Positions 17,879 to 45,153 of a stretch of DNA of 64,000 bases are shown here, in pieces. The stretch spans positions 1 through 64,000 of the forward strand of contig NZ_RKLP01000005.1 of NCBI RefSeq assembly GCF_004011865.1. Direction: 5' to 3'. Position 1 is the first letter of the stretch, and each line of letters opens with the position of its first letter. Position numbers and translations under genes: made by a program. The notes under the pieces are model-generated. The model saw nothing but the letters and a program-made list of their open reading frames with translations, made no database searches and was not told the origin of the DNA. This DNA is from Prescottella agglutinans. GTDB lineage: Bacteria; Actinomycetota; Actinomycetes; Mycobacteriales; Mycobacteriaceae.

Positions 17879-17882
<4 letters not shown>
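17319..17882 (-). CDS. grpE: Nucleotide exchange factor GrpE (187 aa)
   Basis: GrpE releases ADP from DnaK. The acidic N-terminal region is followed by a long coiled coil ([20 protein letters not shown]) and the conserved head region: [16 protein letters not shown] and the C-terminal [16 protein letters not shown]. The ATG overlaps the dnaK stop by four bases (ATGA), so the two are coupled. Confidence 0.95.
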
Positions 17883-19720
<1,838 letters not shown>

Positions 19721-24128: not shown

Positions 24129-24221
24129 GATGTATCGATCGCACACCCATAGGATATTGGACTCACCGCTGCCCGTGGTGCTTCGCTGCCTCTCGACCCC
24201 AATCGAGCGAACGGAGTGAAG

Positions 24222-25988
24222 ATGGCACCGGTCGGGTGGAGAAGCCTGGCGCTCGCGGCCGCGGGAGCGATCGTCCTGACGTCGTGCGGGTTGCTGGGAC
24301 CGGACTCCGGCGAGAAGGTCGCACGCCGGTTCGTCGAGGCCCTGTCCAACCGGGACGTGGCCGCGGCGGCCGCGCTCACCGACGATCCGAACGGCGCGAC
24401 CGATGTCCTGGCCCGCACCTTCGACGGCCTCGGCGACGGGGCCGGTGGGGCGTTCACCGTCGAGCAGGCCGCCGACGCGGTGTTCACCTACCGCTCGGAG
24501 TGGGACTTCGGAGGCGGTCGGGAATGGGGCTATTCGACGACGGTGCCCCTGTCGACCGTCGACGGAAGTCGCCGCGTCGCATGGTCGTCCGGCGTCGTGC
24601 ACGAGCGGCTGCGGCCGGGTCAGGCACTGCAGTACACGACGGTCGCCGACACCCGCTCGGTACTCGACGCCAACGGCATGGCGCTGATGGAGCCGCAGAC
24701 CGTGACCGTGATCGACGCCGAATCCGCGATGCTCGCAGACGATTCCGCGACGCGCGCGGCGGTGACCGCGATCCTCGGCCGGGCGGTGCCGGGGTTCGCC
24801 CTCCCGCGGACCGACCCGTCATCCGAGCGGGTGAACCTGGCGAGCCTGCGCCAGGAAGACGTCGCGCCGATCCGCGCCGAACTCGAGACGCTGCCCGGAC
24901 TCCACCTGTCCGACCAGCTGCGGCTGCTCACCGTCGATCGGCAGCTGACGTCGCCCGTCGTCGCCGGCATCCGGGAGACCTGGGAAGCGCGGCAACAGGA
25001 TTCGGCGGGCTGGCGGGTGCAGGCCGTCGAGCGCGACGGCAGCATCGTCGGCACCCTCGCCGGCGGCGACCCGCCGCACGGCACGGCGATCCGCACGACG
25101 CTCGACCCGCGGATCCAGCATCTGGCCCAGCGGGCGGTGGACACCGAGCATCGGGCCTCGGCGCTGGTCGCGCTCGACGCGTCGACCGGTCAGGTGCTCG
25201 CGGTCGCGCAGAACGAGGCCGCCGACAAGTCCGGTCCGATCGCCCTCACCGGCCTGTACCCGCCGGGATCGACGTTCAAGACGATCACGACGATGGCGGC
25301 GCTACGCGCCGGCGCGGTGAACGCGGACAGCACCGTCGACTGTCCGGGCACCGCGAACATCGAGGGCCGCCGCATCCCCAACGAGGACGAGTTCGATCTG
25401 GGTCGGGTGCCCCTGCACACCGCGTTCGCGCACTCGTGCAACACCACGATGGGTCGGCTCGCCGTCGGACTACCCGCCGACGCGCTGCGGGAACAGGCAC
25501 GCGAGTTCGGACTGGGTGTCGACTACGTGACCCCGGGACTGACAACAGTGACCGGTTCGGTGCCGTCGGCGCGGACACCCGCACAGCGTGTCGAGGCCGC
25601 GATCGGTCAGGGCGAGGACCTGGCCAGCCCGTTCGGCATGGCGATGGTGGCCGCGACCATCGCCGAGGGACAGACACCGCTCCCGCAGTTGATCGCCGGC
25701 GATCCCGCGACCGCGGATCACGCTCCGGAACCACTCGACCCCGGCCACGTGCGGGACCTGAAAGCCATGATGGCCGAGGCCGTTCGCAGTGGCACCGCCA
25801 CCAGCCTCTCCGACATCTCCGGGCTCATCGGCAAGACCGGGACCGCCGAGTTCGGTGACGGCAAGCACGCCCACGGCTGGTTCGTCGGGATCCGCGGCAA
25901 CGTCGCGTTCGCGGTGTTGGTCGTCTCCGGCGAGAGTTCCGGACCCGCGCTCGACATCGCCGGGAACTTCCTGCGGCCCCTCGACTGA
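24222..25988 (+). CDS. Lipoprotein penicillin-binding protein with MecA_N/NTF2-like domain (588 aa)
   Basis: This is a transpeptidase that cross-links peptidoglycan outside the membrane. The ATG at 24222 (MAPVGWRSLALAAAGAIVLT) follows GGAG, and the signal ends with lipobox LTSC (Cys22). Residues about 30-150 resemble the NTF2-like MecA N-terminal domain, then a dimerisation region, then the transpeptidase domain with S350-T-F-K353 (SxxK), S405-C-N (SxN) and K538-T-G (KTG). It resembles Rv2864c-type lipoprotein PBPs of mycobacteria. The divergent LysR-lactamase pair suggests a common wall-stress or beta-lactam-related role. Confidence 0.9.
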   Translation: MAPVGWRSLALAAAGAIVLTSCGLLGPDSGEKVARRFVEALSNRDVAAAAALTDDPNGATDVLARTFDGLGDGAGGAFTVEQAADAVFTYRSEWDFGGGREWGYSTTVPLSTVDGSRRVAWSSGVVHERLRPGQALQYTTVADTRSVLDANGMALMEPQTVTVIDAESAMLADDSATRAAVTAILGRAVPGFALPRTDPSSERVNLASLRQEDVAPIRAELETLPGLHLSDQLRLLTVDRQLTSPVVAGIRETWEARQQDSAGWRVQAVERDGSIVGTLAGGDPPHGTAIRTTLDPRIQHLAQRAVDTEHRASALVALDASTGQVLAVAQNEAADKSGPIALTGLYPPGSTFKTITTMAALRAGAVNADSTVDCPGTANIEGRRIPNEDEFDLGRVPLHTAFAHSCNTTMGRLAVGLPADALREQAREFGLGVDYVTPGLTTVTGSVPSARTPAQRVEAAIGQGEDLASPFGMAMVAATIAEGQTPLPQLIAGDPATADHAPEPLDPGHVRDLKAMMAEAVRSGTATSLSDISGLIGKTGTAEFGDGKHAHGWFVGIRGNVAFAVLVVSGESSGPALDIAGNFLRPLD

Positions 25989-26972: not shown

Positions 26973-28535
26973 CTAGCGCTCGCCCCGCGGAACCGTTGTC
27001 ACCCGGACCGATCCGGTGTCGAGGTCCAGTCGCATGGCCCCCTCGAAGCCGTCCGAACCGCCGGAGCCGCCCAGGTCCGCGAGCACGCCCTCGGCGCTGC
27101 GGGCGGCGACCCGGCAGGCCCGTGCGGTGAACTGGTCGACCAGCGGGTGTGCCGCACGTTCGCGCCACCTCCGTACCGCACCGAGCGCCACCGCCCGCCC
27201 CTCCTCGATCGACGTGTCCGGCGTCAGCCCGAGCCGCTGGGCGACATCGATGCCGAATCCGCCCATCAGCCTCTGCAATTCGACCAGGTCGTCGGGCGAC
27301 AGGCCGGTCTCGGTGCCGCGGAGTCGGCCCAGCATCCGCAGTTCCTGGAATCCGTGCACGTCGGCCAGCAACCGCCGGACCTCACCGAGCAGCCGCGGCG
27401 TCTCCGACCCCGGATGCGCCTCGAGGACACGTTCGAGCGCGACGAGCGCCGAGTGCGTCTTGAGCTGGTCGGCGCGCTGCCCGAACTGGACGTCGATCAC
27501 CTGACGCAACTCGTCGAGCCCGCTGCGCGCCACCAACTCCGATGCGAGAGTGGGTGAATCCTGAACGCCCAGACGGATCAGCATGACCGCGAGCCGGATC
27601 CCGAACAGCCCGAATCGTTCCACCAACTGTCGGCGCACCGCGGTGTCCACCGGCAGCGGGACGTCCTCGCGCGCGAACCGGTCCGCCGACAGCATCGCCA
27701 ACTGCAGGTCTTCCGCCGGCACCGTGGCCAGCGCCTCGAACGCCGCGAACTCGCTCTGCCGCAAAGTCCGCGCGCCCAGCGCCAGCAGTCCGGCGACCGG
27801 CACGACGGCCTGGCACAGTCCGGTGAGCTCGAGTTCCGATGCGAACCGCGCCGCCATGTCCTTCGCGGACATCATCGCGTCGGCCCGGCCGGCACCCACC
27901 TCGTCGGCGCGCGAGACGACCCCGATCACCCCGAGCGGACCCGACTCGCCGCCCACGTGCGTGCCGATACGGCCGAGGAACTGGACATCCGACGCACCGA
28001 GGCTGCGCAGCAGATACACCACCGCGTCGGCGCCAGACACCGCGTTCTCCGGCGTCAGCATCTCGAACGTGCGCGCCGAGACGTCCTTCGACAGCGACGA
28101 CGTGCCGGGGGTGTCGATGATGGTCGTCTGCGCGAGCGCGGGGGCGGGCCACTCGACGTCCAACCGGTCGACCCGGTCCGCGGTGAGGTCGCCGAGGTCG
28201 AACGTGAGGCGTCCGGCGCGGCGCTGCACCGCGACGTTCACCGACCGATCGCCGTCGTGGACCGCGGTGACCGTGGGGGTGGCACCACTGCGGTACCAGG
28301 TTACGACGCGGGTGCACTCGGTCGCGTCCGTGGGCGCGATGTCCTGTCCCACGAACGCGTTGAGCAACGTCGACTTGCCGGCCTTGAGCGAGCCGGCCAG
28401 CGCGACCCGCAGCGGCTGCTCGAGCCGCGCCGCGCATTCCGCGAGTTGCGTTCGGGCCGAGACATTTCCCGCATACGCGTCACGCGCGGACGCGATCAGG
28501 GTCCGGGCGCGGTCCAGGGACGCCGGCGTCGTCAC
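26973..28535 (-). CDS. iniC: Dynamin-family GTPase, IniC-like (520 aa)
   Basis: This is a bacterial dynamin-like protein. G1 is GSLKAGKS (48-55), G2 lies around TDATECTRVV, G3 is DTPGTSSLSKD and G4 is SRADEVGAG. A mostly helical C-terminal half follows, without the two clear membrane helices seen in the partner. The start at 28535 is 4 bp from the IniA-like stop, so the pair is co-transcribed. M. tuberculosis IniA and IniC are encoded the same way and are induced by isoniazid and other wall inhibitors (established). The pair probably acts on inner-membrane remodelling or repair. Confidence 0.87.
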   Translation of the reverse strand: MTTPASLDRARTLIASARDAYAGNVSARTQLAECAARLEQPLRVALAGSLKAGKSTLLNAFVGQDIAPTDATECTRVVTWYRSGATPTVTAVHDGDRSVNVAVQRRAGRLTFDLGDLTADRVDRLDVEWPAPALAQTTIIDTPGTSSLSKDVSARTFEMLTPENAVSGADAVVYLLRSLGASDVQFLGRIGTHVGGESGPLGVIGVVSRADEVGAGRADAMMSAKDMAARFASELELTGLCQAVVPVAGLLALGARTLRQSEFAAFEALATVPAEDLQLAMLSADRFAREDVPLPVDTAVRRQLVERFGLFGIRLAVMLIRLGVQDSPTLASELVARSGLDELRQVIDVQFGQRADQLKTHSALVALERVLEAHPGSETPRLLGEVRRLLADVHGFQELRMLGRLRGTETGLSPDDLVELQRLMGGFGIDVAQRLGLTPDTSIEEGRAVALGAVRRWRERAAHPLVDQFTARACRVAARSAEGVLADLGGSGGSDGFEGAMRLDLDTGSVRVTTVPRGER

Positions 28536-28539
28536 GCCG

Positions 28540-30351
28540 TCACCTCCTCGCCCACAGCGGTTCGACCGGGAACAGCTGCGCGGCGTGCTCCTTCAGCCCG
28601 GCGAGGGCATCGAGCTGCCGCTCGACCTCGGCGGCGCGGCGCGCCCGTTCGGTCGACGCGACGGTGGCCGCCTCCTGCGCCGCCCGCAGCGAATCTGCGA
28701 GCGAACGCAGTGTCTGCTCGGCGATGGTCGTGAAGTGGTCGCGCAGCAACCGCTGGATCAGCCGCAGCCGGTCCTTCGATTCCTTGCCGACCTGGAAGCT
28801 GACGTCGTCGGTGAAGCGCCGGATGGCGACCTTGGCGTCGGCTCGACGCTTGACGACGCGCGCGTCCCGGTCGTCGCGGTACGCCTTGGTGCCCAGCAGG
28901 ACTCCCGCACCCACCGAGATCGGGTTGACCAGTGCCATCCCCATCAGGGTGGTGACCAGGCCGAACATCAGCACGCCGCCGTACGACCCGCGCATGCCGA
29001 CGAGCACCTTCTGGGTGATGCCGATCCGGCCGGACTCGAGATCGGCCAACTCCACGACCGGTTCGAGGACACCGTCCGTGTCGGCGACGTCGAGCTGCGG
29101 CAGTTCCACCGCGCCGGCGTCCGCGAAATGCTCCGCCACCACCTCCGCGAGCCACAGCGCACGGTCGTGCGCCCACACGAAGTTGTCGCCCACCGACTGC
29201 GCGATCTGCTGCTCGAGCCACTCCCCCAGCTCGGTCCACTCCTTGCCGGGATCACCCTCGTCGACGGCGCGTTCGGCCTCCCGGGTCACCTGGCGCAACC
29301 GGTCGCGCAGGTCGTGATCGATGTCGGACGCCAGGTCGGCGATGCCGTCGGCCAGGGTCTGCTGCCAGCGCGCGGTCTTCTTCTGCAGTTCCTCGGTGAC
29401 CGCCTTGGCCCGCTGCAACTCGGCCACCGCAACCGCACCCTTCTCCGGATCCCTCAGTGCGGCAAGCTCACTGGCGAGCGCCAGCTGGAGATGCTCGACG
29501 ACGGAGTGGACGTCCAGGGACACCGTCCGCCGGAGGCCGCCCCGCGCGTACTCGATCACCCGGGTGCGCAGGAAGTCGTACAGCGCGTCGAATCCGGATT
29601 CCTCGTGCAGGGCCCGGTCGTCGAGGCGCAGGGCGTGTGACCGCAGGATCGACGAGATCGGCAGCAGCGGGACGTCGATTCCGGCTCGGCGCAGGTGACC
29701 GCGATCCGCGTCGACGATCTGTCGCCAGTGCGGGTAGAGGTCGGTCTTGGTGATCAGGCACGCCGCCGCCGGACACAACACCGTCACCTGCCGGAGGAAC
29801 GCGACTTCCGGTTCGGTGAACTCCTGGCTCGCGTCGGACACGACCAACACCGCATCCGCCGCCGGCAGCAGTGCGAGAGTGGCTGCTGCATGCGGATTTC
29901 CGTGCCCTCCCACACCCGGCGTGTCGACGAACACGAGACCGTCCGCGAGCAGGGCGCTCGGCACGTTGACCTCGATCCGCAGCACCTCGCGCCCCTCGGC
30001 GCGCGGCGTCTTCGGCGTCACCGCCTCGAGTTCGTCGAGCGGCAGGTCCACCCGGAGCGGCTCACCGCCGGGCTCGGCGAGGACCAACTCCGCGAAGGCC
30101 CGCTCGGAGTTCTGCACCACGGTGGGAACGGCGGTGGTCTCGTCGTCGCCGACCGAGCACACCGCCAGGTTGAGCAGGGAATTGACGAACTGGCTCTTGC
30201 CCTGTTTGAGCTGGCCGACCACGACGACCCGGAACCGGGGATCGACCGTCCGGGTGCGGACCAGAGCCAGCCGTTCCACCAGATCGCCGCGGCCCGCCGA
30301 GGCGGCGATCGTCGTCGTTCGATCGAGCAGATCCGTCATCGCGTCGTTCAT
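28540..30351 (-). CDS. iniA: Dynamin-family GTPase with membrane paddle, IniA-like (603 aa)
   Basis: G1 is GQLKQGKS (46-53), G3 is DTPGVGGHGN and G4 is TKTD, with a long helical region rich in charged heptads after the GTPase domain. Two neighbouring hydrophobic stretches (SYGGVLMFGLVTTLMGMALV and NPISVGAGVLLGTKAY) form the membrane-inserting paddle expected of IniA. The ATG at 30351 gives a length close to the 640 residues of M. tuberculosis IniA; the frame upstream is only an extension through the intergenic hairpin. IniA is known to be a GTPase that drives membrane fission in vitro. A hairpin between iniB and iniA may lower its expression relative to iniB. Confidence 0.88.
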   Translation of the reverse strand: MNDAMTDLLDRTTTIAASAGRGDLVERLALVRTRTVDPRFRVVVVGQLKQGKSQFVNSLLNLAVCSVGDDETTAVPTVVQNSERAFAELVLAEPGGEPLRVDLPLDELEAVTPKTPRAEGREVLRIEVNVPSALLADGLVFVDTPGVGGHGNPHAAATLALLPAADAVLVVSDASQEFTEPEVAFLRQVTVLCPAAACLITKTDLYPHWRQIVDADRGHLRRAGIDVPLLPISSILRSHALRLDDRALHEESGFDALYDFLRTRVIEYARGGLRRTVSLDVHSVVEHLQLALASELAALRDPEKGAVAVAELQRAKAVTEELQKKTARWQQTLADGIADLASDIDHDLRDRLRQVTREAERAVDEGDPGKEWTELGEWLEQQIAQSVGDNFVWAHDRALWLAEVVAEHFADAGAVELPQLDVADTDGVLEPVVELADLESGRIGITQKVLVGMRGSYGGVLMFGLVTTLMGMALVNPISVGAGVLLGTKAYRDDRDARVVKRRADAKVAIRRFTDDVSFQVGKESKDRLRLIQRLLRDHFTTIAEQTLRSLADSLRAAQEAATVASTERARRAAEVERQLDALAGLKEHAAQLFPVEPLWARR

Positions 30352-30439
30352 GAGTCCCGCTGCCCCGCTTCTCTGTTCCGACCCGCGCCCGCATCCGCGT
30401 ACGCGCGCTGGCTGATCCGCCGCTCCGCTGGATACGAAT

Positions 30440-30475
30440 CGGGGCCCCGCTCGCATTAGCGCGTCCGGGGCCCCG
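30440..30475 (-). terminator. Hairpin between iniB-like and iniA-like genes
   Basis: CGGGGCCCCG occurs at 30440-30449 and again at 30466-30475. Each copy is self-complementary and they also pair with each other around a 16-nt loop. It begins about 25 nt after the iniB-like stop, and iniA starts about 90 nt further on. It may be a partial terminator or an mRNA-stabilising hairpin that sets different levels of the abundant IniB and the dynamins. Confidence 0.6.
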
Positions 30476-30499
30476 TTCGTTACAAGCTCCGCCGGGTCG

Positions 30500-33115
30500 T
30501 CACGGCAGCAGATCGTGTCCGAGATCCGGCTGGGTGGCGGCCGGGTCGAGGATGGACGAACCGACGTGTCCCAGGGCGTCGGCGACGCCGTCGGCGAACA
30601 GCCCCGCGTCCGAATGCGCCGAACCGAACGCGTCACCGTCGATCGAGGACCAGGCGTTTCCGCCCGCGAGACCACCCGTCAGCCCAGTGGTGAGGTCGGA
30701 GGTCGCATCGACTGCGCCCTGCCACGCCGACGTCAGACCGCTCGTGAGGTCGGCCGCGATGTCTCCGGTTCCGGCGACGCCGGTGCCGAGTCCGCCGGCG
30801 ACGTCGCCGCTCGACCCGAAGCCGCCGCCGAGGTCACCACCGATCCCGCCCTCGACACCGCCACCGAATCCGCCGTCCACCGAACCGGACGATCCGGCGC
30901 CGGCCTGCAGTCCGCCGGCTGCGGCCGTCGCGGCATCGACGAAACCGTTCAGCGCGCCGGTCAGGTCGGCACCGAGCTGCCCACCGAGGTCACCGGCCGA
31001 GCCGAGACCGCCGCCCAGCTGACCCCCGAGATCCCCCGTCGAGCCCAGCCCGCCGCCGGCGCCGAGCGCCGCGTCCAGGGCCGCACCGAGGTCGCCGCCG
31101 GCCGAGCCGCCCGCGCCGAGCAGGCCGCCGAGCGCACCGCCCAGCTCGGTGCCGAAGCCACCGTCACCGGCGAGCAGGCCGCCGAGGTCCAGCGAACCTC
31201 CGGACTCGAGGCCGCCCCCGAGGACGCCTCCGAGCGCCGAGCCCAGGTCGACGCCGGCCGAGCCGCCGACACCGAACGCGGCCTCGAGCAGGCCGCCGAG
31301 ATTCGCGTCGGCTCCCACCTCGACGCTGCCGGCGAGCGCGAGCGCGCTGTCGATCGCCGTGCCGAGCGTGGCGGTGAGGGCGCCGTCGACGTCGAGCGCT
31401 CCGCCGAGCGCCCCGCTGATCGCGGTGCCCAGATCGCCGTCGGCGAGGCTGCCCAGGTCGAGGCTGCCGCCGAGCCCGCCGGCCAGAGCCCCACCGAGAG
31501 CCGCCCCCAGCTCGGCTCCGATCGAGCCCCCCGCCGCGAGCGCGGACCCGAGGGCGCCGCTGAGCGCCGCCGTCAGATCGGCACCCACGTTGCCGCCCAA
31601 CTCCGCGCCGAGGCTACCGCCGACCTCGAGCGCCGATTCGAGGGCGCCGGTGAACGCAGCCGACAGGTCGCCGCCGGCTCCCAACACACCCGCGAGCGCC
31701 GCCTCGAGCGAACCGCCGAGCCCCCCGGCCGCCTCGACGGCGCCGTCGAGCACGCCACCGAACGCGGCGCCCAGCGCACCGCCGAGATCGCCGCCGACGC
31801 CGAACGCGCCCTCGAGGGCCGCGGTCAGGCCACCACCCGCCTGCAGCAGACCCCCCAGGTCGAGGCTGTTCACGCCCTCGAGAGCGGCACCCAGCGCGGC
31901 ACCGAGCTGGGTGGTGAGCGCCCCGTCGACACCGAGCGAGCCACCGATCAGGCTGCCGAGCGACGCGCCCAGGTCCAGCGCGGTGTCGATCTCGAGCAGG
32001 TTCGCGAGGTCGAGGGCGCCGCCGAGTTCGAGGGCGCCGCCCAGCGCGGCACCGAGATCGGCGCCGATGGACCCGCCGAGCGACAGCGCCGACTCGAGCA
32101 GCCCGCTCAGGCTGGTACCGATCTGGCCCAGAATGTCGGCGTCCAGTCCGCCTCCGAGGCTGCCGCCGAGCGACAGCGCGGACTCGAGCGCTCCGGTCAG
32201 TGCCGCGGTGAGATCCGCGCCGATCCCGAGGCCACCACCGAGCGCCGCGCCGAGCGAACCGCCCAACCCGAGCAGCCCCTCGAGACCGGCGCCGAGCCCC
32301 CCATCGAGCCCGGCGCCGGCCTCGATCGCCGCACCGAAGAGCGCACCCAGCGCGCCGCCGAGTTCGGCTCCCAGCTCGCCGCCGATGCCGAACGCGCTCT
32401 CCAGCGCAGCAGTCAATCCGCCGTCCACCGACAGCAGTCCATCCAGGTCGAGGCTGCTCACGCCGGCGAACGCGGCATTGAGCGCGGCACCGAGATCGGT
32501 CACGAGGGAGCCGTCGACGTCGAGCGCGCCGCCGATGGCCGCGGCGAGCGCCCCACCGAGATCCAGCGAACCACCGAGGTCGGTCAGGCTGCCGAGATCG
32601 AGGCCGCCGCCCAGCCCGACCGCGGCCTCGATCGCGCCGCCGATGGCCGCACCGAGTTGCGCGCCGATCGCGCCGCCGGCCGCGAGCGCCGCGCCCAGCG
32701 CGGCCGCCAGATCCCCACCGAAGTCGAAGCCGCCACCGAGGTCGAGACCCCCGCCCAGCCCACCGCCCACGGCGGCACCGAGTCCCAGCCCCGCACCGGC
32801 GCCGAGCCCGGCACTGCCTCCGAGTCCCAGACCGCCGCCGAGACCCAGACCGCCACCCAGGCCACCGGCGGCGGCTCCGCCGACCGACCCCGCCGCTCCG
32901 GCACCGGCCGCGAGGATCGCACCCAGATCGCCCGCCGCGGGTCCGAACAGCCCGGATTCGGCGACCATCGGCGCCACCGCGACGATGTCGGCGTGGCACA
33001 CACCGTCGAGTCCGGCCGCACTGAGCGCCGCCTGCGGATTCGCGCAGTACGCCGCGGCCGCGTCCTCGTCGCGGAGAAGCCGGAGGATGAAGTCGAGAAC
33101 TGCGTTGCTGGCCAT
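30500..33115 (-). CDS. iniB: IniB-like giant Gly/Ala-rich repeat protein (871 aa)
   Basis: The ATG at 33115 (MASNAVLDFILRLLRDEDAA) follows AGGAG. The first 60 residues form the IniB-type N-terminal domain (YCANPQAALSAAGLDGVCHA). The remaining 800 residues are low-complexity Gly/Ala/Leu/Asp/Ser in a short period such as GGSLGAxLGAAL. A longer repeat starts at residues about 199, 396 and 576 (VDGSLVTDLG, VDGALTTQLG, VDGALTATLG), each continuing with SLDLxGLL, GGLTAALExAFG and a long LGxxLGxAL run. The C-terminal 60 residues lose the repeat. It is nearly twice as long as I recall M. tuberculosis IniB to be. It is first in the iniB-iniA-iniC unit; its function is unknown even in mycobacteria. Confidence 0.85.
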   Translation of the reverse strand: MASNAVLDFILRLLRDEDAAAAYCANPQAALSAAGLDGVCHADIVAVAPMVAESGLFGPAAGDLGAILAAGAGAAGSVGGAAAGGLGGGLGLGGGLGLGGSAGLGAGAGLGLGAAVGGGLGGGLDLGGGFDFGGDLAAALGAALAAGGAIGAQLGAAIGGAIEAAVGLGGGLDLGSLTDLGGSLDLGGALAAAIGGALDVDGSLVTDLGAALNAAFAGVSSLDLDGLLSVDGGLTAALESAFGIGGELGAELGGALGALFGAAIEAGAGLDGGLGAGLEGLLGLGGSLGAALGGGLGIGADLTAALTGALESALSLGGSLGGGLDADILGQIGTSLSGLLESALSLGGSIGADLGAALGGALELGGALDLANLLEIDTALDLGASLGSLIGGSLGVDGALTTQLGAALGAALEGVNSLDLGGLLQAGGGLTAALEGAFGVGGDLGGALGAAFGGVLDGAVEAAGGLGGSLEAALAGVLGAGGDLSAAFTGALESALEVGGSLGAELGGNVGADLTAALSGALGSALAAGGSIGAELGAALGGALAGGLGGSLDLGSLADGDLGTAISGALGGALDVDGALTATLGTAIDSALALAGSVEVGADANLGGLLEAAFGVGGSAGVDLGSALGGVLGGGLESGGSLDLGGLLAGDGGFGTELGGALGGLLGAGGSAGGDLGAALDAALGAGGGLGSTGDLGGQLGGGLGSAGDLGGQLGADLTGALNGFVDAATAAAGGLQAGAGSSGSVDGGFGGGVEGGIGGDLGGGFGSSGDVAGGLGTGVAGTGDIAADLTSGLTSAWQGAVDATSDLTTGLTGGLAGGNAWSSIDGDAFGSAHSDAGLFADGVADALGHVGSSILDPAATQPDLGHDLLP

Positions 33116-33224
33116 GGGAACGCTCCTGACAGTCTGGAGGCCGGCTGCCGCAAGATCCGACCGGGACACTGCGGCGAGATTGGTTTCCACGCTACGAATC
33201 CGGGACGTGCACGGTAACGGGGCG

Positions 33225-33294
33225 GATCCCCCCGAGCACCGACAGGGGGATTCTCGCCTCCCTCCATAGGGGATCGGGCCGGATTAGGGGGATC
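33225..33294. promoter_or_regulatory. Cluster of four G-run motifs in the iniB divergent promoter
   Basis: The 295-bp region between iniB and the Hsp70-like gene holds four copies of GGGG(G)AT(C/T): GATCCCCCC on the + strand at 33225-33233 (reverse), AGGGGGATT at 33244-33252, AGGGGATC at 33268-33275 and AGGGGGATC at 33286-33294. The last runs into ACCCCC and is nearly a palindrome. They lie 110-180 bp upstream of iniB and 117-186 bp upstream of the Hsp70-like gene. They are candidates for binding by the LuxR-type regulator encoded next door. Confidence 0.5.
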
Positions 33295-33410
33295 ACCCCC
33301 AAACCCGCACCGCTCGTCACCCGTTCCCGTAACGCACGACGACGACACACCGACAATCGCCATACCACCGGCGGTCACGCAAACCCGCCCAGAACGGACG
33401 GGAGAAGGGT

Positions 33411-35192
33411 ATGACCGCTGGACTCGGAATTGCTGTCGGAACCGCCAATTCGCGCACCGCGTCCTTATCGGAGGCCGGATCGGAAGTCGCCGAACCGGCA
33501 CTCGTCACCACGTCCCGCCCGTCGGTTCTGCACGTCGCGGCCGACGGATCCGTCACGTTCCCCGATCCGCCCACCGACCCCGCCGGCCTCCCCGTGGCCG
33601 GGTTCGTCGAACGCGTCGGCGATCCGGTGGGCCTGCTCGACGACAACGGCCACGTCCATCGGGGTGAGGACCTGTTCGCCGCCGCAGCGGCCCGACTGAT
33701 CGACGCCGTCGGGAGCACCGGCGCCGCTGCCGTCACCCACCCGACCGCATGGAACACGTACACCGTCCACGCCCTCGAATCCGCGCTCGCTCGCGCGGGG
33801 ATCGCGGCGGCGCGCGTCGTGCCCGAGGCCACCGCCTGCGTACGTTGGCTCGAATCGTCGCGTGATCTGCAGGGCGACGGTGTCGTGGTGGTCTACGACC
33901 TCGGTGCGTCCGCGCTCGACGTCTCCGTGGTCCGCACCGGCACCGAACCGTCGATCCTCGGCAAGCCGATCCGGTCCGAGGATTTCGGCGGCACGCACTT
34001 CGACCACCTGGTCACCCGGTACGTGCTCGACACGGTCTCCGACAAGACCGACGATCTCGATCCCTTCGACAGCGCCACGACTGCCGCGCTCGGGGATCTG
34101 CGCCGGAACTGCGCGGCGGCCAAGGAGTCGCTGTCCACGGACACCGAAACCGTCATCCCCGTCGCCCTGCCCGGGTACGTCGCGGACGTACGCCTGGTCC
34201 GGTCCGAACTCGAGGATCTGATCCGGCCGGCACTCACCGGTTCGCTCGAACTGGTCCGAGAAGCACTGCGGTCGGCCGAGATCGAGGTCTCCGACGTCGG
34301 CTGCGTGCTGTTGACGGGCGGTGGCGGAGCGATCCCGCTGGTGGCCGAACTCGTCTCGTCCGAACTGGGCCTCGCGGTGGTGGCGGCAGCGGACCCGGCG
34401 CTCACCGCCGCGCTGGGAGCGGCCCACCTCGCCGTCGACGAACCGGCGTCCACCGACGCGACGACGATCTTCCCCGACTACGAGCACGTCCCCGACGACA
34501 CGGTCGTCGCACCGGTCGTCCCCAGCTTCCCGTCCCGTATGCGCTCGCCTCGGAGCGAGTCCCCGACCCGGCGCCGAATCGCGATCGTCCTGTCCGCCGC
34601 GGCCGCCGTCGGGATCCTCACCGCGGGCGGTCTGTCCATCGGGACGGCATCGAAGAACGAACCGGCACAGTCGAGTTCATCCGTCCCCGGAACGACCACG
34701 GCACCATCCGGCGGTGTCACGACGCCCGGCGCGGCGATCGGCGGTGCGGTACCGGGCGAGACCGTCACCGTCGGCCACGTCGGAACGGGCGGGACCGCGA
34801 CGGCTGCGGACGGCGGACTCGTCCGGACCGCCGATGCCGGACGCGTCACCACCGCGCCGGGTCCGACTGCGGGCACCCCGGGTACGCCGGGTGCGGCACC
34901 GAGCGTCCCGGAAGGTGCCCCCGCAGCGCCCTCCGCTCCCACCCCCGAAGGCCAGGCGCCCGGTGGCGCCGTGGTGGCGCCGCCCGCATACATCCCGCCC
35001 GCACCCGTGGGCGGCGTGCCGAATCCGGCACCCAGCGGACCCTCCCCCGCCGACGTCGGCGAGGGAATCGGCAAGGCAGCCACCGGTGTGGGCAAGGGAC
35101 TCGGGGCAGCGGTGACCGGTATCGGGACCGGCGTCGGGAACATCGTCGGGGCGGTCGTCGACCCGGTGACCGGACTGCTGATCGGAAAGTAG
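33411..35192 (+). CDS. Membrane-anchored Hsp70/actin-fold ATPase-like protein with Pro/Gly/Thr-rich exterior (593 aa)
   Basis: The N-terminal 340 residues form an Hsp70/actin-like domain: MTAGLGIAVGTANSRTA (phosphate-1), VYDLGASALDVSVVRTG (phosphate-2, 162-175) and CVLLTGGGGAIPL (adenosine loop, 298-310). There is no Hsp70 substrate-binding domain. One helix follows (AIVLSAAAAVGILTAGGLSI, about 391-410), then about 180 residues of Pro/Gly/Thr/Ala-rich sequence and a final Gly-rich GKAATGVGKGLGAAVTGIGT. The RBS is GGGAGAAGG. It is divergent from iniB and ends 3 bp before the LuxR gene. A paralogue of the same layout lies at 53277. Its role is unknown; signalling or scaffolding between cytoplasm and wall is a guess. 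Confidence 0.8.
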   Translation: MTAGLGIAVGTANSRTASLSEAGSEVAEPALVTTSRPSVLHVAADGSVTFPDPPTDPAGLPVAGFVERVGDPVGLLDDNGHVHRGEDLFAAAAARLIDAVGSTGAAAVTHPTAWNTYTVHALESALARAGIAAARVVPEATACVRWLESSRDLQGDGVVVVYDLGASALDVSVVRTGTEPSILGKPIRSEDFGGTHFDHLVTRYVLDTVSDKTDDLDPFDSATTAALGDLRRNCAAAKESLSTDTETVIPVALPGYVADVRLVRSELEDLIRPALTGSLELVREALRSAEIEVSDVGCVLLTGGGGAIPLVAELVSSELGLAVVAAADPALTAALGAAHLAVDEPASTDATTIFPDYEHVPDDTVVAPVVPSFPSRMRSPRSESPTRRRIAIVLSAAAAVGILTAGGLSIGTASKNEPAQSSSSVPGTTTAPSGGVTTPGAAIGGAVPGETVTVGHVGTGGTATAADGGLVRTADAGRVTTAPGPTAGTPGTPGAAPSVPEGAPAAPSAPTPEGQAPGGAVVAPPAYIPPAPVGGVPNPAPSGPSPADVGEGIGKAATGVGKGLGAAVTGIGTGVGNIVGAVVDPVTGLLIGK

Positions 35193-35195
35193 TCG

Positions 35196-37727
35196 ATGCG
35201 GACCCTAGGAGCAGGCGCGTCGGCAGCGCCGTTCGGCGACTCGCCGTCGGACCCCGCACTCGCCGGGGTGCCCGGCGGCCGGGACCTCGCCGAGGCGCTC
35301 ACCTCACGCGCGGACGGTTGCGTCCTGGTTCGCGGCAACTCCGGCAGCGGGAAGTCTCTCCTGCTCGCTTCCGCGCGAAACATGTTGAGCACACGGGCAG
35401 ATCGCGTGCACGCCACCGTCGATGCCGCGCTGCTCGACTCGGGACCACTGGTTCTCGACGGCGCGCACGCCCTGCCCGACGCCGAACTCGTCGCCCTGCG
35501 TCGACTCGTGCAACGGGGCAACCGCACGGTGGTCGTGGCCACCGAACCCCGACCACACCGCACGCCGCTGTGCGACCTCGTGACGGGAATGCAGGCACGC
35601 GGGCCGGTGATCGACCTCCGCCCCCTGACCCCGAGCGAGGTCGACGAACGAGCGCGGCGGCGCGGAATCGCGCTGGCGCCGGACCTCACCCGCTCGCTCC
35701 ACGAGTCGACCGCGGGCGTGCTCGCCTCCATCGACGCCGGACTCGACGCGGCCGAGTCCTCGGACTGCGACGAGAACGCGATCCACGCCGCGGTGGCGTC
35801 GCATCTGCACGACGCGCTGCGACATCTCGACACGGACATGCTCGCGGCACTGTCGCTGTGCGCGTTCGGATTCGGCATGGATTCGACGGACCTGGCCACC
35901 GTCCTGCAACTGACGCCGGAGGCCGGACTGGACCTCACGGACCGGGTGCGCGCGAGTGCGTTCGTGCCCCGCGCGAACACCGCCGCGCCCGCGGTGCGGC
36001 CACTGGTCGGCGCGGCGCTGGGCGTCACACGACTGCGGGAACTCCAGGCGGGTGTGCTGACGGCGCGACTCGACGCCGGGACGCTCGACGCACAGGCCGC
36101 GCTGATGCTGGCCGAGGCCGGTCTCGAGGACCGGCGGCTCGCCCAGTTCCTGTGCACGTGCGCGGAATCGGAGAACCCCGTGCGCGCTGCCGAACTCCTG
36201 GCGGCCGCGGTCCGGGCCGGAGCCGACGCCGACTGCGTCGCCCTGCGCCGGTCCGAGGCGAGCGCGCTGGCCGGCGACCTGGACACCGCCGAAGCGCTCA
36301 CCGACTCGATGATCGACCGCGCCGCCGCCCTCGAACCGGTGGAGTTGGCCTCCGCGGTGCGCATCTCGGCCGGTATCGCGGCGTACCGAGGAGCGGTCGA
36401 GCGCAGCGCCGATCTGTACGAGTGGCTCGGTCCCGAGCGGGTCGGGGCGGACGCCGCGATCGCCGCGACGGTCCTGCTCGCCGCCGGGCGCCCCGAGTCG
36501 GCCGCCGGACACCTCGCAGCGGGACGACAGGGACCGCCGACGTCCGGGGCGGCGGGTGTCGCGCTGCTCGCCGAAGGACTCAGCCAGTCGATCGCGGATT
36601 CCGGTGCGCTCGCGATGAACTCGCTCACCCGTGCGATGTCGCTGCTGAACACCAGCGCGCACGCACGCCTGCTGCCGGACAGCGCGACCGCGGTCACCGC
36701 ACTACTGTGTCTGCACTCCGGCGAACTCGCGCACGCGGATTCGGTGCTTCGGCGAGCACTGGAGTCCGATCCGCCGGCGAGCATCGCCCGCACCCGGCAC
36801 CTCGTGCTGTCGGCGTGGACCGCGATGATCGGGGGTGATCTCATCGCCGCCGCCTCGATCGTCGACGCGCTCCCCACCGACAGTCCGCTGCACGCCCGCG
36901 AGGCCCTGTTCGTCCACGGGTTGCGCGTGGGGCTCGCCCGCCGCAACGGGGACGTCGGTGCGCTGCAACGTGAGTGGTCCGTGGCCCAACCGGTGGTCGC
37001 CGGCTACTCGGTGGACCTGTTCAGCCTGTTGCCGCTCGGGGAACTCTGGCTGGCCGCGGTGCGCGTCGGGGACGTCCCCCGGATCGCGCACCTGATCGCG
37101 CAGGCGCAGGAACTGCTGAGCCGGCTCGGTGAACCGGCGCTGTGGGGTGCGGCGCTGCACTGGTACGGCGTGCAGGCCGCGATCCTCGGCGACAACCCGG
37201 CGCAGCTGCTGCCGCACGCTCGGGCGCTCGCCGCGGCCGCCGCGGTGAGCGCCTACTCCGCCGGGCTCGCCGCCGCCGGGCGCGTCTGGTTGCGGGTGCT
37301 CCGGGAGGAGGCGGACGCGTCGGAGGTGGAGTCCGCGGCACGGGAACTCGAGCGCATCGGACTTCCCTGGGACGGCGCACGCCTGGCCGGCGAAGCCGCG
37401 CTTCGCGTCTCGGACACCCGCGGCGCCACGACGCTGCTCCAGGTCGCTCGCTCGCTGCGGGACACGACGGCGCCGCAACCCACCGGCGAGTCCGCCGCAC
37501 CCGATGCGAGCGGGGGCACACTCACCGAGCGCGAGGCGGACGTGGCCGGTCTGCTGCTCCTCGGGCTCACCCACCGCGAGATCGGCGCCCGCCTGTACAT
37601 CGCGCCGAAGACCGTCGAGCACCACGTGGCGCGGATCCGACGACGGCTCGGCGCCAACTCCCGATCGGAGTTGCTGTCGATGCTGCGCGCGCTCGGCTAC
37701 GGAGGCGCCGAATCGTCCGCCTCGTGA
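35196..37727 (+). CDS. iniR: Large ATP-binding LuxR-family regulator, IniR-like (843 aa)
   Basis: Walker A is GNSGSGKS (47-54), with a degenerate Walker B LVLDGAHALPDAE. A long helical TPR-like region (about 250-750) leads to a LuxR HTH at the C-terminus (LTEREADVAGLLLLGLTHRE, IGARLYIAPKTVEHHVARIR). This is the STAND/LAL type. In M. tuberculosis Rv0339c, as I recall named IniR and reported to sense trehalose and control iniBAC, has the same build and lies between iniB and Rv0338c, as here. The gene follows the Hsp70-like gene by 3 bp, so they form one operon divergent from iniB. Confidence 0.85.
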   Translation: MRTLGAGASAAPFGDSPSDPALAGVPGGRDLAEALTSRADGCVLVRGNSGSGKSLLLASARNMLSTRADRVHATVDAALLDSGPLVLDGAHALPDAELVALRRLVQRGNRTVVVATEPRPHRTPLCDLVTGMQARGPVIDLRPLTPSEVDERARRRGIALAPDLTRSLHESTAGVLASIDAGLDAAESSDCDENAIHAAVASHLHDALRHLDTDMLAALSLCAFGFGMDSTDLATVLQLTPEAGLDLTDRVRASAFVPRANTAAPAVRPLVGAALGVTRLRELQAGVLTARLDAGTLDAQAALMLAEAGLEDRRLAQFLCTCAESENPVRAAELLAAAVRAGADADCVALRRSEASALAGDLDTAEALTDSMIDRAAALEPVELASAVRISAGIAAYRGAVERSADLYEWLGPERVGADAAIAATVLLAAGRPESAAGHLAAGRQGPPTSGAAGVALLAEGLSQSIADSGALAMNSLTRAMSLLNTSAHARLLPDSATAVTALLCLHSGELAHADSVLRRALESDPPASIARTRHLVLSAWTAMIGGDLIAAASIVDALPTDSPLHAREALFVHGLRVGLARRNGDVGALQREWSVAQPVVAGYSVDLFSLLPLGELWLAAVRVGDVPRIAHLIAQAQELLSRLGEPALWGAALHWYGVQAAILGDNPAQLLPHARALAAAAAVSAYSAGLAAAGRVWLRVLREEADASEVESAARELERIGLPWDGARLAGEAALRVSDTRGATTLLQVARSLRDTTAPQPTGESAAPDASGGTLTEREADVAGLLLLGLTHREIGARLYIAPKTVEHHVARIRRRLGANSRSELLSMLRALGYGGAESSAS

Positions 37728-37809: not shown

Positions 37810-39198
37810 ATGCGTACCTCGCTGGCGCCGCGCGCCGCAGTGCTGTCGTTCGCCCGCCGCGCCGCTGTCGTCGGATCGTCGACGCTGCTGCTCGCCGCAC
37901 CGCTCACCGCGTCCGCGCACGCCGAGCCGACCGACCCGGTCGGGTCGTCCGGGGCAGGCGTCACGCAGCTCTCCGCGGACGAGCTGCCCGCCGATCTGGT
38001 CGAGGCGATCACCCGGGATCTGCAGATCAGCCCGCAGGAGTACCTCGACCGTGCCGCACGCGCGCAGGAACTCGGCTCGTACGCGGCGGACTTCAGGGCC
38101 GAACGTCCCGAGGAGTTCGCCGGCGCCTGGATGGGTCTCGACGGTCACCCCGTCGTCGCCGTGACGACGACGGAGGCGGCACAGGACGCGGCCCGCGACG
38201 GGTACCGCACCCACATGGCACCGGTCTCCCTCGAGGGACTCGAGCAGTCCGTCGCCGACTTCAACCGTTGGGTGTCGGACCTGCCGCGCGAGATCGCATC
38301 GCAGGTCGGGTCCGCCTCGATCGACGTCCTGAACAACCAGATCGTCGTCGACATCGCCAACAGCCCCGCCGGACGCGCACTCGACCTGCCCACGCAGATC
38401 GCGAACGTCAAGGTCCAGCTCTCGAATGTCGGGCCGGCCCCGGTGGAACGGACGCCGATGGGCGGCGACACCTACGTGACGTCGGCCAAGCCCCTGGGCG
38501 ACGCGCCCCGCGACGAAATCGGAATCTGCTCCTTCGGATTCAACGGCGTCGACCGGAACGGCAATGCCGTGAACATCAGTGCGGGTCACTGCGACCCCGC
38601 GCAGGGTGCGAACGCGGGCGTGTACCTGCCGAACCGCGAGAACCTCGCCGACAGCCTCGAGGTGGGCAAGTTCGCCCGCTCCGAGATCGGCGGCAACGAC
38701 ACCATCGACTACTCGTTGATCCGCCTCAACGACGCGGGCCTGCGCGTCGGCCTCGACCGCCCGGTGATCCGCGGCGCCGGCGGCAGCACCCTCACCGTCA
38801 CCGGCACCGCCGTCCCCGTCGTCGGAGCCCCGATCTGCAAGTCCGGGCAGACGTCGTCGTTCACCTGCGGTGTCGTGTCCGCCGACCGGGTCGAGGCACA
38901 GCTCATGACCTTCGACGGCGCCAGCCACACGGTGCGCGGATTCGCCGGGACCGCTTGCACTCTCGCGGGAGACAGCGGCGGCGCGATCGTCACGGGCACG
39001 CTGGCTCTCGGCATCACCAGCGGGTCCAACAGCAGCGACGCACCCAGTTGCGCCGAGGCCAACATGGTTCTCGCGTTCGACGGTGGAACCTCCAACCTGG
39101 GCATTCCGATCCGCACCATCCTGGGCGCCGCCGACGCGTCCTCCGGCGGGGGTCTGGGCGCCGGTCTTTCCGTGCGCACCGGCGCCGCCGGCGCCTGA
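37810..39198 (+). CDS. Secreted S1-family serine protease 1 (462 aa)
   Basis: The signal peptide (MRTSLAPRAAVLSFARRAAV to about residue 38, AHAEP) leads to a prodomain of about 190 residues, then a chymotrypsin-fold domain of the alpha-lytic/streptogrisin type. The triad is His260 in NISAGHC, Asp300 in TIDYSLI and Ser389 in GDSGGAIV. Cys pairs CSFG...GHC and CKSG...TC...ACTLAGDS fit the family disulfides. It is one of two tandem paralogues and follows the LuxR gene by 82 bp. The prodomain keeps the ISPQEYLDRAARAQE motif seen in both copies. It probably acts outside the cell or in the wall. Confidence 0.88.
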   Translation: MRTSLAPRAAVLSFARRAAVVGSSTLLLAAPLTASAHAEPTDPVGSSGAGVTQLSADELPADLVEAITRDLQISPQEYLDRAARAQELGSYAADFRAERPEEFAGAWMGLDGHPVVAVTTTEAAQDAARDGYRTHMAPVSLEGLEQSVADFNRWVSDLPREIASQVGSASIDVLNNQIVVDIANSPAGRALDLPTQIANVKVQLSNVGPAPVERTPMGGDTYVTSAKPLGDAPRDEIGICSFGFNGVDRNGNAVNISAGHCDPAQGANAGVYLPNRENLADSLEVGKFARSEIGGNDTIDYSLIRLNDAGLRVGLDRPVIRGAGGSTLTVTGTAVPVVGAPICKSGQTSSFTCGVVSADRVEAQLMTFDGASHTVRGFAGTACTLAGDSGGAIVTGTLALGITSGSNSSDAPSCAEANMVLAFDGGTSNLGIPIRTILGAADASSGGGLGAGLSVRTGAAGA

Positions 39199-44900: not shown

Positions 44901-45153
44901 ACTGGGCTTCAAGTCGGGCGCGAAGGCACCGGGCGCCCGCAAGGCCGCCCCGGCCGCCTCTGCTCCGGCACCAGCTGCCCCGGCTGCCGAGCCCGTCGCA
45001 GAGCCCGAGCAGCCTGCCGCACCGCAGGCCGAGGCCGCACCGGCCGAGGCTCCGGCGCCGAAGCAGGAGGCGTCGACGCCGCCTCCGCCGCAGGCCAAGC
45101 CCGGCGCGCTGGGCTTCAAGGCCGGCGCCAAGGCCCCCGGCCGCAAGAAGTAG
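41977..45153 (+). CDS. Membrane iron-sulfur reductase, Rv0338c type, with repetitive C-terminal tail (1058 aa)
   Basis: The N-terminal 250 residues contain about five membrane helices, like a NarI/HdrE-type cytochrome-b-like domain. Two [4Fe-4S] motifs follow: CTECGRCQSQCP (from C298) and CTTCGACVEQCP (from C400). Two CCG-type domains come next (CAHCFNALGNEYPQ, HDPCYLGRHNK, CCGAGGARMWMEE, CPFCRVM), as in heterodisulfide-reductase HdrD/GlpC-like proteins. From about residue 745 the protein is Ala/Pro/Glu/Lys-rich with about eight copies of a G-L-x-M-K-x-x-AKAPG unit. It probably passes electrons from a cytoplasmic donor to the quinone pool. The M. tuberculosis counterpart Rv0338c is reported essential. 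Confidence 0.9.
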   Translation: MNALTITLGTVGVLLSLVCWASFLSGAWRMAKTVQIGQSAPDRWRPFFPRFKQMIVEFIAHTRMQKFRTVGWAHWLVMIGFLGGALLWFEAYGQTFDPTFHWPLFGNTWVWHLWDEILGIGTVVGILTLIVIRQLNHPRIPERLSRFGGSRFGAAYFVEVVVLIEGLGMIMVKAGRIAMTGHSNPWTDFFTMRVAELLPSSAVMVSCFAFVKLMSGMIWLFVVGRNITWGVAWHRFSAFPNIYFKREDDGGVALGAAKPMMSKGRALDMENVDPDTDTLGAGRIEDFSWKGWLDFTTCTECGRCQSQCPAWNTGKPLSPKLLIMSLRDHGYAKAPYLLAGGRKDMGGDEVGLVDAEGNVLENKLAAIPEAARAEAERPLIGESVEGELGGIIDPETLWSCTTCGACVEQCPVDIEHVDHIIDMRRYQVLIESEFPSELAGLFKNLENKGNPWGQNSKDRLNWINEMDFEIPVYGQDADSFEDYEYLFWVGCAGAYEDRAKKTTKAVAELLATAGVKFMVLGAEETCTGDSARRAGNEFLFQQLAMQNIELLNTVFDGTPDNKRKIVVTCAHCFNALGNEYPQVGGVYEVVHHTQLLNRLVRAKKLVPVAKLNEDVTYHDPCYLGRHNKVYDAPRELMEASGAKLNEMPRHGERSMCCGAGGARMWMEEQLGKRINIDRVDEALTTSPKKIATGCPFCRVMLTDGVTARQEQGQGEGVEVVDVAQMMLETVTRLDPAQLTANLKVEPREKAPVASAPAAEAAAPVAEAPVAEAAPAAEAAPAAAAAPAAGKGLQMKGLAKAPGAKAPGGKGLQMKGAAKAPGAKAEAAAPAAEAAPAAEAPAAPVAKPGGLGMKGGAKAPGGKGLQMKGAAKAPGAKAAAPAPAAAPAAEAPAAEAPAAPAAPAAKPGGLAMKGGAKAPGGKGLQMKGGAKAPGAKAAAPAPAAEAPAAAPAAPAAEAPAAPAAEAKPAPQAKPGALGFKSGAKAPGARKAAPAASAPAPAAPAAEPVAEPEQPAAPQAEAAPAEAPAPKQEASTPPPPQAKPGALGFKAGAKAPGRKK

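Follow-up and report, generated by a model that had tools for sequence, protein, structure and literature searches.

The closest described system is the mycobacterial iniR-iniBAC locus (Rv0339c, Rv0341-Rv0343), for which published work has IniR binding upstream of iniBAC and acting as its activator. According to the accessible part of Boot 2017 (PMC5760070), mycobacterial IniR answers isoniazid, ethambutol and trehalose, and acts on iniBAC only, as judged by RNA-seq. The same part describes IniR as MalT-like, M. marinum IniR resembling sugar-binding domain III, and places a dnaK-like gene directly downstream of iniR in M. smegmatis.

The ini locus of Prescottella

We analysed a stretch of 64,000 nucleotides from the genus Prescottella (hereafter, the window), in which positions 26973-37727 hold an ini locus. 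The genes iniC, iniA and iniB run leftward, an Hsp70-like gene and iniR run rightward, and a 295-bp gap separates these divergent arms (Table 1). The locus was identified by an IniA-type dynamin, an IniB N-terminal domain and a second dynamin-like gene, iniC. A sequence-only reading of the same DNA had proposed these five genes, and all of them were found at the positions and on the strands it gave. Its statement that both arms start from the same promoter holds, as far as can be read from the sequence, for a common divergent intergenic region and for nothing beyond that region.

Table 1 Features of the ini locus in the window
Feature	Position	Strand	Evidence
iniC, dynamin-like GTPase, 520 aa	26973..28535	-	Dynamin_N E 2.2e-11, 44.5 bits (cut-off 27); GSLKAGKS, DTPG
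iniA, dynamin-like GTPase	28540..30351	-	Likely ATG start 30351; 6j72 match, Dynamin_N 58.5 bits
iniB, IniB N-terminal domain and Gly/Ala/Leu-rich repeats; likely start gives 871 aa	30500..33115	-	NF038175
Divergent intergenic region, iniB / Hsp70-like gene	33116..33410	.	295-bp gap, sequence
ini box pair, two TAGGGG units, starts 18 bp apart; proposed IniR operator	33267..33290	+	
Membrane-anchored Hsp70-like protein, 593 aa	33411..35192	+	PF00012, family alignment, hydropathy
iniR-like regulator, P-loop and C-terminal LuxR-type helix-turn-helix, 843 aa	35196..37727	+	NF038181, GerE 51.3 bits, conserved columns

The window shares with the mycobacterial locus the divergent regulator, the order iniB-iniA-iniC, the IniB N-terminal domain and the dynamin pair. 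Beyond iniR, both have a gene whose product carries Fe-S and cysteine-rich domains (41977-45153 in the window), which we take to correspond to Rv0338c. The window differs in that an Hsp70-like gene lies between iniB and iniR, in that one IniB-domain gene was found where mycobacteria have iniB* and iniB, and in that its IniR scores under the equivalog cut-off.

Products of the five genes

IniC: The product of iniC, which adjoins iniA, matches the bacterial dynamin-like protein 2j68 (E 1.5e-07) and IniA 6j72 (E 3.3e-05).

IniA: Open-frame residues 113-702 match M. smegmatis IniA (6j72) with E 3.1e-189. The likely start is the ATG of Table 1 rather than position 30675, to which the open frame extends. 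The motifs GQLKQGKS, DTPG and TKTD are present, and together with those of IniC and the Dynamin_N scores they bear out the dynamin-like nature that had been claimed for both proteins.

IniB: The N-terminal domain profile NF038175 is matched with 73.2 bits against a cut-off of 40, in agreement with the earlier proposal of a leftward IniB-like protein. The ATG at 33115 is the likely start.

IniR: The match to the profile NF038181 has E 4.6e-178 and 594 bits and covers positions 16-824 of the 827 in the model. NCBI's equivalog cut-off of 750 bits is not reached by the window protein, and 6 of the 76 matching family genomes reach it. We call the protein IniR-like because of the near-full-length match, the P-loop, the helix-turn-helix and the neighbouring genes. 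The P-loop GNSGSGKS and the C-terminal LuxR-type helix-turn-helix are as in MalT-type switch ATPases (STAND) and agree with the Walker-A/LuxR regulator proposed earlier.

Hsp70-like protein: PF00012 is matched with 94 bits (cut-off 20.6) at profile positions 135-372 of 599 only, and the part resembling a nucleotide-binding domain spans about residues 1-345. No profile match to a substrate-binding domain was found past PF00012 position 372; this part consists of a hydrophobic segment followed by a Pro/Gly tail. By hydropathy, the segment begins at about residue 390 and has 5 K/R before it and 1 after it; the tail of about 184 aa is predicted to lie outside. The earlier description as a one-helix protein with a Pro/Gly-rich outside tail agrees with this prediction, and 64 of 64 family members have a hydrophobic segment on the C-side that more K/R precede than follow.

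In the family alignment, the position equivalent to the catalytic Asp8 of DnaK has lost this residue in 63 of 64 members (kept in 1), and Lys70 is lost in all 64; in the window protein, Ala and Val take their places. The counts cover the window protein and 63 of the 70 loci called for an upstream copy, with five members lacking a usable N-terminus, L097 and L105 set aside. The label "ATPase", which the sequence-only reading had used, is unsupported because the catalytic residues are absent, and an active ATPase was rejected on these losses. The Asp194-equivalent, the GG loop and the AKxxLS region are retained as in DnaK. Nucleotide binding is only putative since two residues of the phosphate loop are poorly kept, the Thr199-equivalent in 4/64 and the Asp201-equivalent in 27/64. 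In contrast to DnaK, the protein has neither a matched substrate-binding domain nor Asp8 and Lys70, and it carries the hydrophobic segment and tail. It also falls outside DnaK in a tree (support 100/99) of a chosen subset, namely 39 loci named for the upstream copy with part of the downstream copies. The loss of the catalytic Asp8 and Lys70 in a protein without a matched substrate-binding domain is newly described here.

Linkage of the Hsp70-like gene to the ini locus

The sequence-only reading had called the Hsp70-like gene a new fixed member of the locus. We checked whether it is absent from most relatives and found it upstream of iniR in at least 71 of 76 family genomes with IniR, a count that uses all 76 IniR rows and those Hsp70-like rows judged relevant among the matches listed. 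It is likewise upstream of iniR in 69 of 70 readable named loci, where L105 is excluded (its match starts at 2645, after iniR), L097 with its split frame is counted as having the gene, and ten cases lie at contig ends. These counts rule out a local oddity. In Mycobacterium, at least 70 of 102 genomes have the upstream gene, the 102 being the IniR genomes (103) less G234, which gave two identical partial matches. A profile search of the whole order was rejected as a tally of the family, its matches near 1e-35 being probably DnaK.

The description thus stands for a regular member, and it does not stand for a strict position or for the novelty of the neighbour. Strict fixity upstream of iniR fails because Mycobacterium genomes without the gene there have a relative near iniC, without the box described below. 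Among 20 Mycobacterium loci fetched because the upstream gene was missing, all 20 retain iniR, and a non-DnaK Hsp70-like relative lies near iniC in 16 of 16 readable ones; the TAGGGG box was found before 0 of 14 iniC-side copies. Hsp70-like matches beside iniC in L062, L072, L086, L134 and L143 were rejected as family members because they group with DnaK in the tree, an assignment also checked by BLAST for L062 and L072. As to novelty, the dnaK-like gene beside iniR in M. smegmatis is already present in the accessible text of PMC5760070. That gene adjoins iniR as ours does, but it is described downstream and in one species, as far as this text goes; here the gene is upstream and family-wide, and its residues and box are analysed. 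The M. smegmatis copy resembles a second Hsp70-like gene (hsp2) of Mycobacterium loci. Nocardia sp. CNY236 (L176) shows no iniBAC and no upstream Hsp70-like gene, and retains iniR with a second Hsp70-like copy beside it.

Over 60 loci, distances of the Hsp70-like protein correlate with those of IniA (0.90), IniC (0.91) and IniR (0.82). The partial correlations are 0.30, 0.25 and 0.20, respectively, with overlapping half-sample ranges, and the method does not discriminate between IniR and the dynamins as the partner. Taken as a whole, the Hsp70-like gene is very probably a member of the ini locus.

A direct-repeat box in the shared intergenic region

The region common to iniB and the Hsp70-like gene holds a direct-repeat box, TTAGGGGAT. 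Of 65 homologous intergenic regions, 64 contain one or more TAGGGG, and the density of this word there exceeds that elsewhere in the loci about 100-fold. The TTAGGGGAT words recur as direct repeats, the preferred step between them being 18, 15 or 14 bp. With at most 1 mismatch allowed, the pair has 1 match in the window and a mean of 0.03 in shuffles, 3 of 100 of which contain one. TAGGGG-N12-TAGGGG occupies a single place in the 5.4-Mb genome and its backward control 2 places. Across 151 genomes, the spaced pair is rarer than the backward control (70 vs 302 places), which rules it out as a genome-wide signal. Because the control is commoner, only the placement of the pair counts as evidence: 37 of the 70 places lie within 400 bp upstream of the Hsp70-like gene described here, all in IniR-positive genomes.

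In Mycobacterium, at least two box units precede hsp2 in 10 of 10 loci, oriented as they are towards iniB, which points to an effector gene. L157, outside this set of ten, has two units before its second Hsp70-like gene, one per strand. The box, with its occurrence both between the two arms and ahead of hsp2, is newly described here. Judged by its sequence, it may be a landing site for IniR, and its conservation in both places makes co-induction of the Hsp70-like gene with iniBAC plausible.

Discussion

Our best reading, a tentative one, makes the Hsp70-like protein a membrane adaptor that depends on nucleotide and serves the effector side of the ini response. FtsA, PilM and GspL are actin-fold membrane adaptors of the actin/Hsp70-superfamily type at the inner membrane, and FtsA and PilM, which serve their own machines there, provide the model. 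They belong to other families, and the partners here would, by analogy, be the dynamins and IniB. Under wall stress, binding of IniR to the TTAGGGGAT direct repeats would activate iniBAC and also, directly or via the divergent arm, the Hsp70-like genes. The product would be a single-pass protein, with a cytoplasmic Hsp70/actin-type nucleotide-binding domain devoid of the catalytic Asp and Lys and a tail towards the envelope. It might place or assemble IniB, IniA and IniC at damaged membrane, and its tail might connect them to the wall or outer layer. In favour of this reading are the linkage to the locus, the placement of the box, the pattern of lost and kept residues, the K/R bias around the hydrophobic segment, the distance correlations, the effector-like boxes before hsp2, and Nocardia sp. 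CNY236, where the upstream gene and iniBAC are both missing and iniR stays. Against an adaptor on the effector side stands the position of the gene in the iniR arm and not in the iniBAC arm. Further points against it are the partial correlations, the iniC-side copies without a box, the commoner backward control, the poorly kept phosphate loop, the RNA-seq result that IniR acts on iniBAC only, and the second copy beside iniR in CNY236. M. marinum and M. tuberculosis have a functioning IniR and no Hsp70-like gene reported at the locus, so the gene is not indispensable.

The sequence-only reading had offered a sensor or a scaffold, and the sensor may be cast as the main rival. The protein would bind IniR, a MalT-like switch ATPase, and keep it inactive at the membrane until wall damage, sensed by the tail, frees it. 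We regard such a tether as possible but doubtful. It is suggested by the position of the gene, which is co-oriented with and immediately upstream of iniR, with 3 bp between the frames in the window and, among the matches listed, at most 200 bp between the two matches in 52 of 71 genomes. It also has a precedent in E. coli, where idle MalK keeps MalT anchored (PMC10427625, accessible part). The likeness extends to the DNA, since the ini box has GGGGAT in common with the MalT box GGGGA(T/G)GAGG given in the available text of PMC7567727, and to the MalT-like regulator itself (PMC5760070, in part). The ini system differs from the MalT regulon in its box, in its trigger (wall stress or trehalose) and in that any membrane partner would be Hsp70-like and not MalK. 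A tether is opposed by the responses of IniR to isoniazid, ethambutol and trehalose in mycobacteria for which the accessible part of PMC5760070 reports no upstream Hsp70-like gene, by the retention of iniR in every Mycobacterium locus chosen for missing that gene, and by the effector-like boxes before the second copy.

The repeats themselves could have another meaning, as a G-rich structure (quadruplex) or the site of another regulator, which we consider unlikely. The stretch upstream of M. tuberculosis Rv0339c, with two TTAGGGGA units, is listed as a putative G-quadruplex in the accessible part of PMC5515968; binding of HpoR to the iniBAC promoter has been reported, at a different motif according to the available part of PMC13413693; and our literature search found no report of IniR binding to the repeats. 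On the other hand, the words recur in direct repeat at preferred steps and are not mere G runs, and the promoter pairs are confined to IniR-positive genomes.

That the membrane-anchored protein is an ordinary, ATP-driven Hsp70 chaperone, or one that forms actin-like filaments, is very improbable: the PF00012 score and weak matches to MreB, FtsA and PilM profiles, all under their own cut-offs, are outweighed by the lost catalytic residues, the unmatched substrate-binding domain and the separation from DnaK in the tree. There is equally little to recommend linkage by neighbourhood only, in which the gene would ride with a conserved chromosome region and not act jointly with ini. Two downstream protease-like genes are also kept at many loci, including two genomes of the same genus that have no ini, and dnaK is nearby in the window and several relatives; however, those two genomes (G011, G013) retain the flanking protease-like genes while lacking the Hsp70-like gene together with the ini set, other Mycobacterium genomes carry the relative elsewhere in the ini locus, and the box precedes the second copy.

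If the Hsp70-like protein is an adaptor, a wider and more speculative picture comes into view. The ini response of mycolic-acid bacteria might be built on a catalytically dead, membrane-anchored Hsp70 head, serving the dynamin pair and the glycine-rich envelope protein, with one MalT-like operator, the TTAGGGGAT repeats, addressing the whole set and the M. tuberculosis locus as a reduced form from which the Hsp70-like part was lost.

The iniBAC promoter widely serves to report the damage that drugs do to the wall of mycobacteria. An Hsp70-like membrane partner that is regularly present, and a short candidate operator found once in the genome, bear on how the dynamins are placed and on the DNA target of IniR. 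The Hsp70-like gene is found in most sampled relatives with the ini locus, which is used under cell-wall attack, and this suggests that a component kept by most of these relatives may be missing from the forms of the locus investigated to date.

The ini locus of the window

The five genes named in the sequence-only reading, iniC, iniA, iniB, the Hsp70-like gene and iniR, were all found where it had placed them, in a genome of 5.4 Mb. In profile searches of the window proteins, IniC and IniA matched Dynamin_N above the curated cut-off, and IniB contained the IniB N-terminal domain. IniA matched the solved M. smegmatis IniA with an E value of 3.1e-189. For IniR, an NCBI model was matched across nearly the full length with 594 bits, which is below the cut-off of 750, a value exceeded by just 6 of the 76 matching family genomes. 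The window locus is a genuine ini locus. Its closest named IniR locus among the matches listed is that of Prescottella defluvii SampleD3_15 (L097; 92%). There, the frames of the Hsp70-like gene and of iniC are both split, likely a sequencing error because the corresponding genome (G002) is 79% complete.

Features of the ini region and Hsp70-like paralogues in the window genome
Feature	Position	Strand	Remarks
dnaK	17879-19720	-	~7 kb from iniC
Penicillin-binding-protein-like transpeptidase gene	24216-25988	+	MecA_N domain; between dnaK and iniC
ini locus	26973-37727		iniC, iniA and iniB on the - strand
iniB/Hsp70-like intergenic region	33116-33410		divergent
TAGGGG-N12-TAGGGG	33267-33290
Hsp70-like gene	33411-35192	+
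iniR	35196-37727	+
First protease-like gene	37810-39198	+	secreted serine-protease-like by appearance
Second protease-like gene	~39.3-40.7 kb	+	as above; GHC and GDSGG visible
Short Hsp70-like protein (P0006)	53277-54431	-	384 aa; hydrophobic segment, Pro-rich tail
Distant Hsp70-like paralogue (L019, L201)	G000:C16:228438-229562	-	664-aa open frame

The two tandem protease-like genes downstream of iniR matched no Pfam family, and relatives of both are found in numerous loci of Rhodococcus and Nocardia. Of 14 genomes from the genus, 12 have weak matches near the place of P0006, the two without ini among them. No ini genes were found in a 20-kb stretch around the distant paralogue; one TAGGGG is present.

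Conservation of the Hsp70-like gene

The family sample comprised 151 genomes, drawn evenly, of which 76 carry IniR at E values up to 1e-60. The proposal that the Hsp70-like gene is a regular member of the locus was borne out: it lies at most 3 kb from iniR on its upstream side, in the same orientation, in 71 of the 76, and in 52 of these 71 the match lies within 200 bp of iniR. As to the five misses, the contig ends at iniR in G137, iniR and the Hsp70-like match are on separate contigs in G074 and G059, G023 has a weak copy picked up by the profile, and in G094 a relative adjoins iniC. Among the 75 IniR-negative genomes, four show a Hsp70-like match at 1e-40 or better. In three of them, the same stretch contains an iniR that is divergent or cut, and the Hsp70-like gene adjoins iniC in G043 and precedes iniR in G099 and G146; the fourth (G026) is 66% complete. 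Two genomes of 3.7-4.0 Mb from the same genus as the window (G011 and G013; L092, L093) have neither IniR nor a Hsp70-like match. The protease-like flanking genes are retained in both.

Among the 522 confirmed stretches listed for the named collection, 80 IniR loci were retained. Among these matches, the Hsp70-like gene is upstream in 69, and the contig ends before the gene in 10. L105 was not counted as upstream since its match starts after iniR. The one exception, Nocardia sp. CNY236 (L176), keeps iniR and a second Hsp70-like gene, and no iniB, iniA or iniC was found in its fetched stretch. A record titled Kitasatospora arboriphila (L121), with an ini locus laid out as in Williamsia muralis, is probably mislabelled.

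IniR is present in 103 of 148 Mycobacterium genomes, and the Hsp70-like gene is directly upstream of iniR in at least 70 of 102 IniR-positive ones. Twenty of the other 32 were fetched, and none of these 20 loci has an upstream copy. A relative within 3 kb of iniC was found in all 16 with sequence past iniC; in the other four, the contig stops before that point. By BLAST, the 16 relatives are nearer to the window Hsp70-like protein than to DnaK. We infer that the fetched Mycobacterium genomes are slow growers.

Features of the Hsp70-like protein

The N-terminal part of the window protein matches only the Hsp70 nucleotide-binding domain, and the profiles suggest an Hsp70-type fold. Residues were counted in 64 members (the window protein and 63 named loci) aligned to DnaK of the window genome, in E. 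coli numbering. Asp8 is kept in one member and Lys70 in none. The Asp194 equivalent and the GG of the adenosine loop are kept in all 64, and the A-K/R-x-x-L-S region is likewise conserved; at the Glu171 equivalent, 45 members have Glu and 18 have Asp. Only 4 members keep the Thr199 equivalent, and 27 keep that of Asp201. An RVGDP motif is shared by all of 41 aligned members. Past residue 330, every one of the 64 has a hydrophobic segment with more K/R before than after it, and 49 have exactly one. The tail terminates in Gly/Val-rich sequence in many members from Rhodococcus and Williamsia and in Pro/Thr-rich sequence in those from Mycobacterium.

In a tree of 111 chosen sequences, 93, among them nearly all the ini Hsp70-likes, were split from 18 including DnaK with support 100/99. 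The G043 copy (L200) and the distant paralogue of the window genome are on the DnaK side, on long branches. Five iniC-side hits (L062, L072, L086, L134, L143) group there as well and were rejected as ini Hsp70-likes, being DnaK itself; dnaK is near iniC in these relatives as in the window.

A repeated box in the divergent intergenic region

The commonest 8-letter word in the iniB/Hsp70-like intergenic regions is TCCCCTAA, i.e., TTAGGGGA, found in 55 of 65 homologous regions, and the next commonest words mostly overlap it. Read in the iniR direction, TAGGGG is found in 64 of the 65, with two or more occurrences in 56. Neighbouring units are 18 bp apart in 42 of 74 steps; 138 units point toward iniR and 31 are opposite. 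On both strands, there are 169 units in 18,454 bp of intergenic sequence vs 274 in 1,267,614 bp of loci containing all but one of the 65 regions, an enrichment of about 100-fold in counts that are not independent because the loci are related.

The window genome has TAGGGG-N12-TAGGGG in one place and the backward control in two. Across the 151 family genomes, the spaced pair is rarer than the control (70 vs 302 places), so it was rejected as a frequent pattern. Its placement, not its frequency, makes it stand out: of the 70 places, 37 precede the ini Hsp70-like gene by no more than 400 bp, and each of the 37 genomes concerned is IniR-positive. The other 33 lie elsewhere, one of them in the gap between iniR and a second Hsp70-like gene. 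In the remaining IniR genomes, the exact pair is missing or the steps differ.

The short gap before the Mycobacterium-type second Hsp70-like gene, which follows iniR, holds at least two units in 10 of 10 loci. Of 51 gaps of other types, 49 have none and two have one unit (both L139). Pairs toward the second gene read CCCCTA, the same as toward iniB; toward the Hsp70-iniR arm the orientation is reversed. This makes iniB and the second copy the clearer targets. No TAGGGG was found near the start of the 14 iniC-side copies checked, making joint control of these copies less likely.

The box is a promising operator candidate. A limited search of the open-licence literature gave no description of it as an IniR site; in PMC5515968, the M. 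tuberculosis sequence preceding Rv0339c, which has two TTAGGGGA units, is given as a putative G-quadruplex.

Possible role

According to PMC5760070, IniR binds in front of iniBAC and activates it, and PMC6715688 describes membrane fission by IniA in vitro. We tentatively favour the Hsp70-like protein as an adaptor on the effector side. That it tethers IniR at the membrane is somewhat less likely, although this model is attractive by analogy with MalT: IniR is described as MalT-like in PMC5760070, GGGGAT is common to the ini box and the MalT box, given as GGGGA(T/G)GAGG in PMC7567727, and PMC10427625 has idle MalK anchoring MalT at the membrane. Against a tether, IniR signals in species without a reported upstream copy, the relative near iniC is retained in Mycobacterium genomes lacking that copy, and the boxes of the second copy resemble those of iniB. 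The effector-side adaptor is favoured because of these three facts; distance correlations single out neither role.

Beyond a remark on a dnaK-like gene adjoining iniR in M. smegmatis (PMC5760070, section 10), no description of an Hsp70-like ini component was found in a limited search of the open-licence literature. The Hsp70-like gene is a regular yet little-noticed component of the ini locus.
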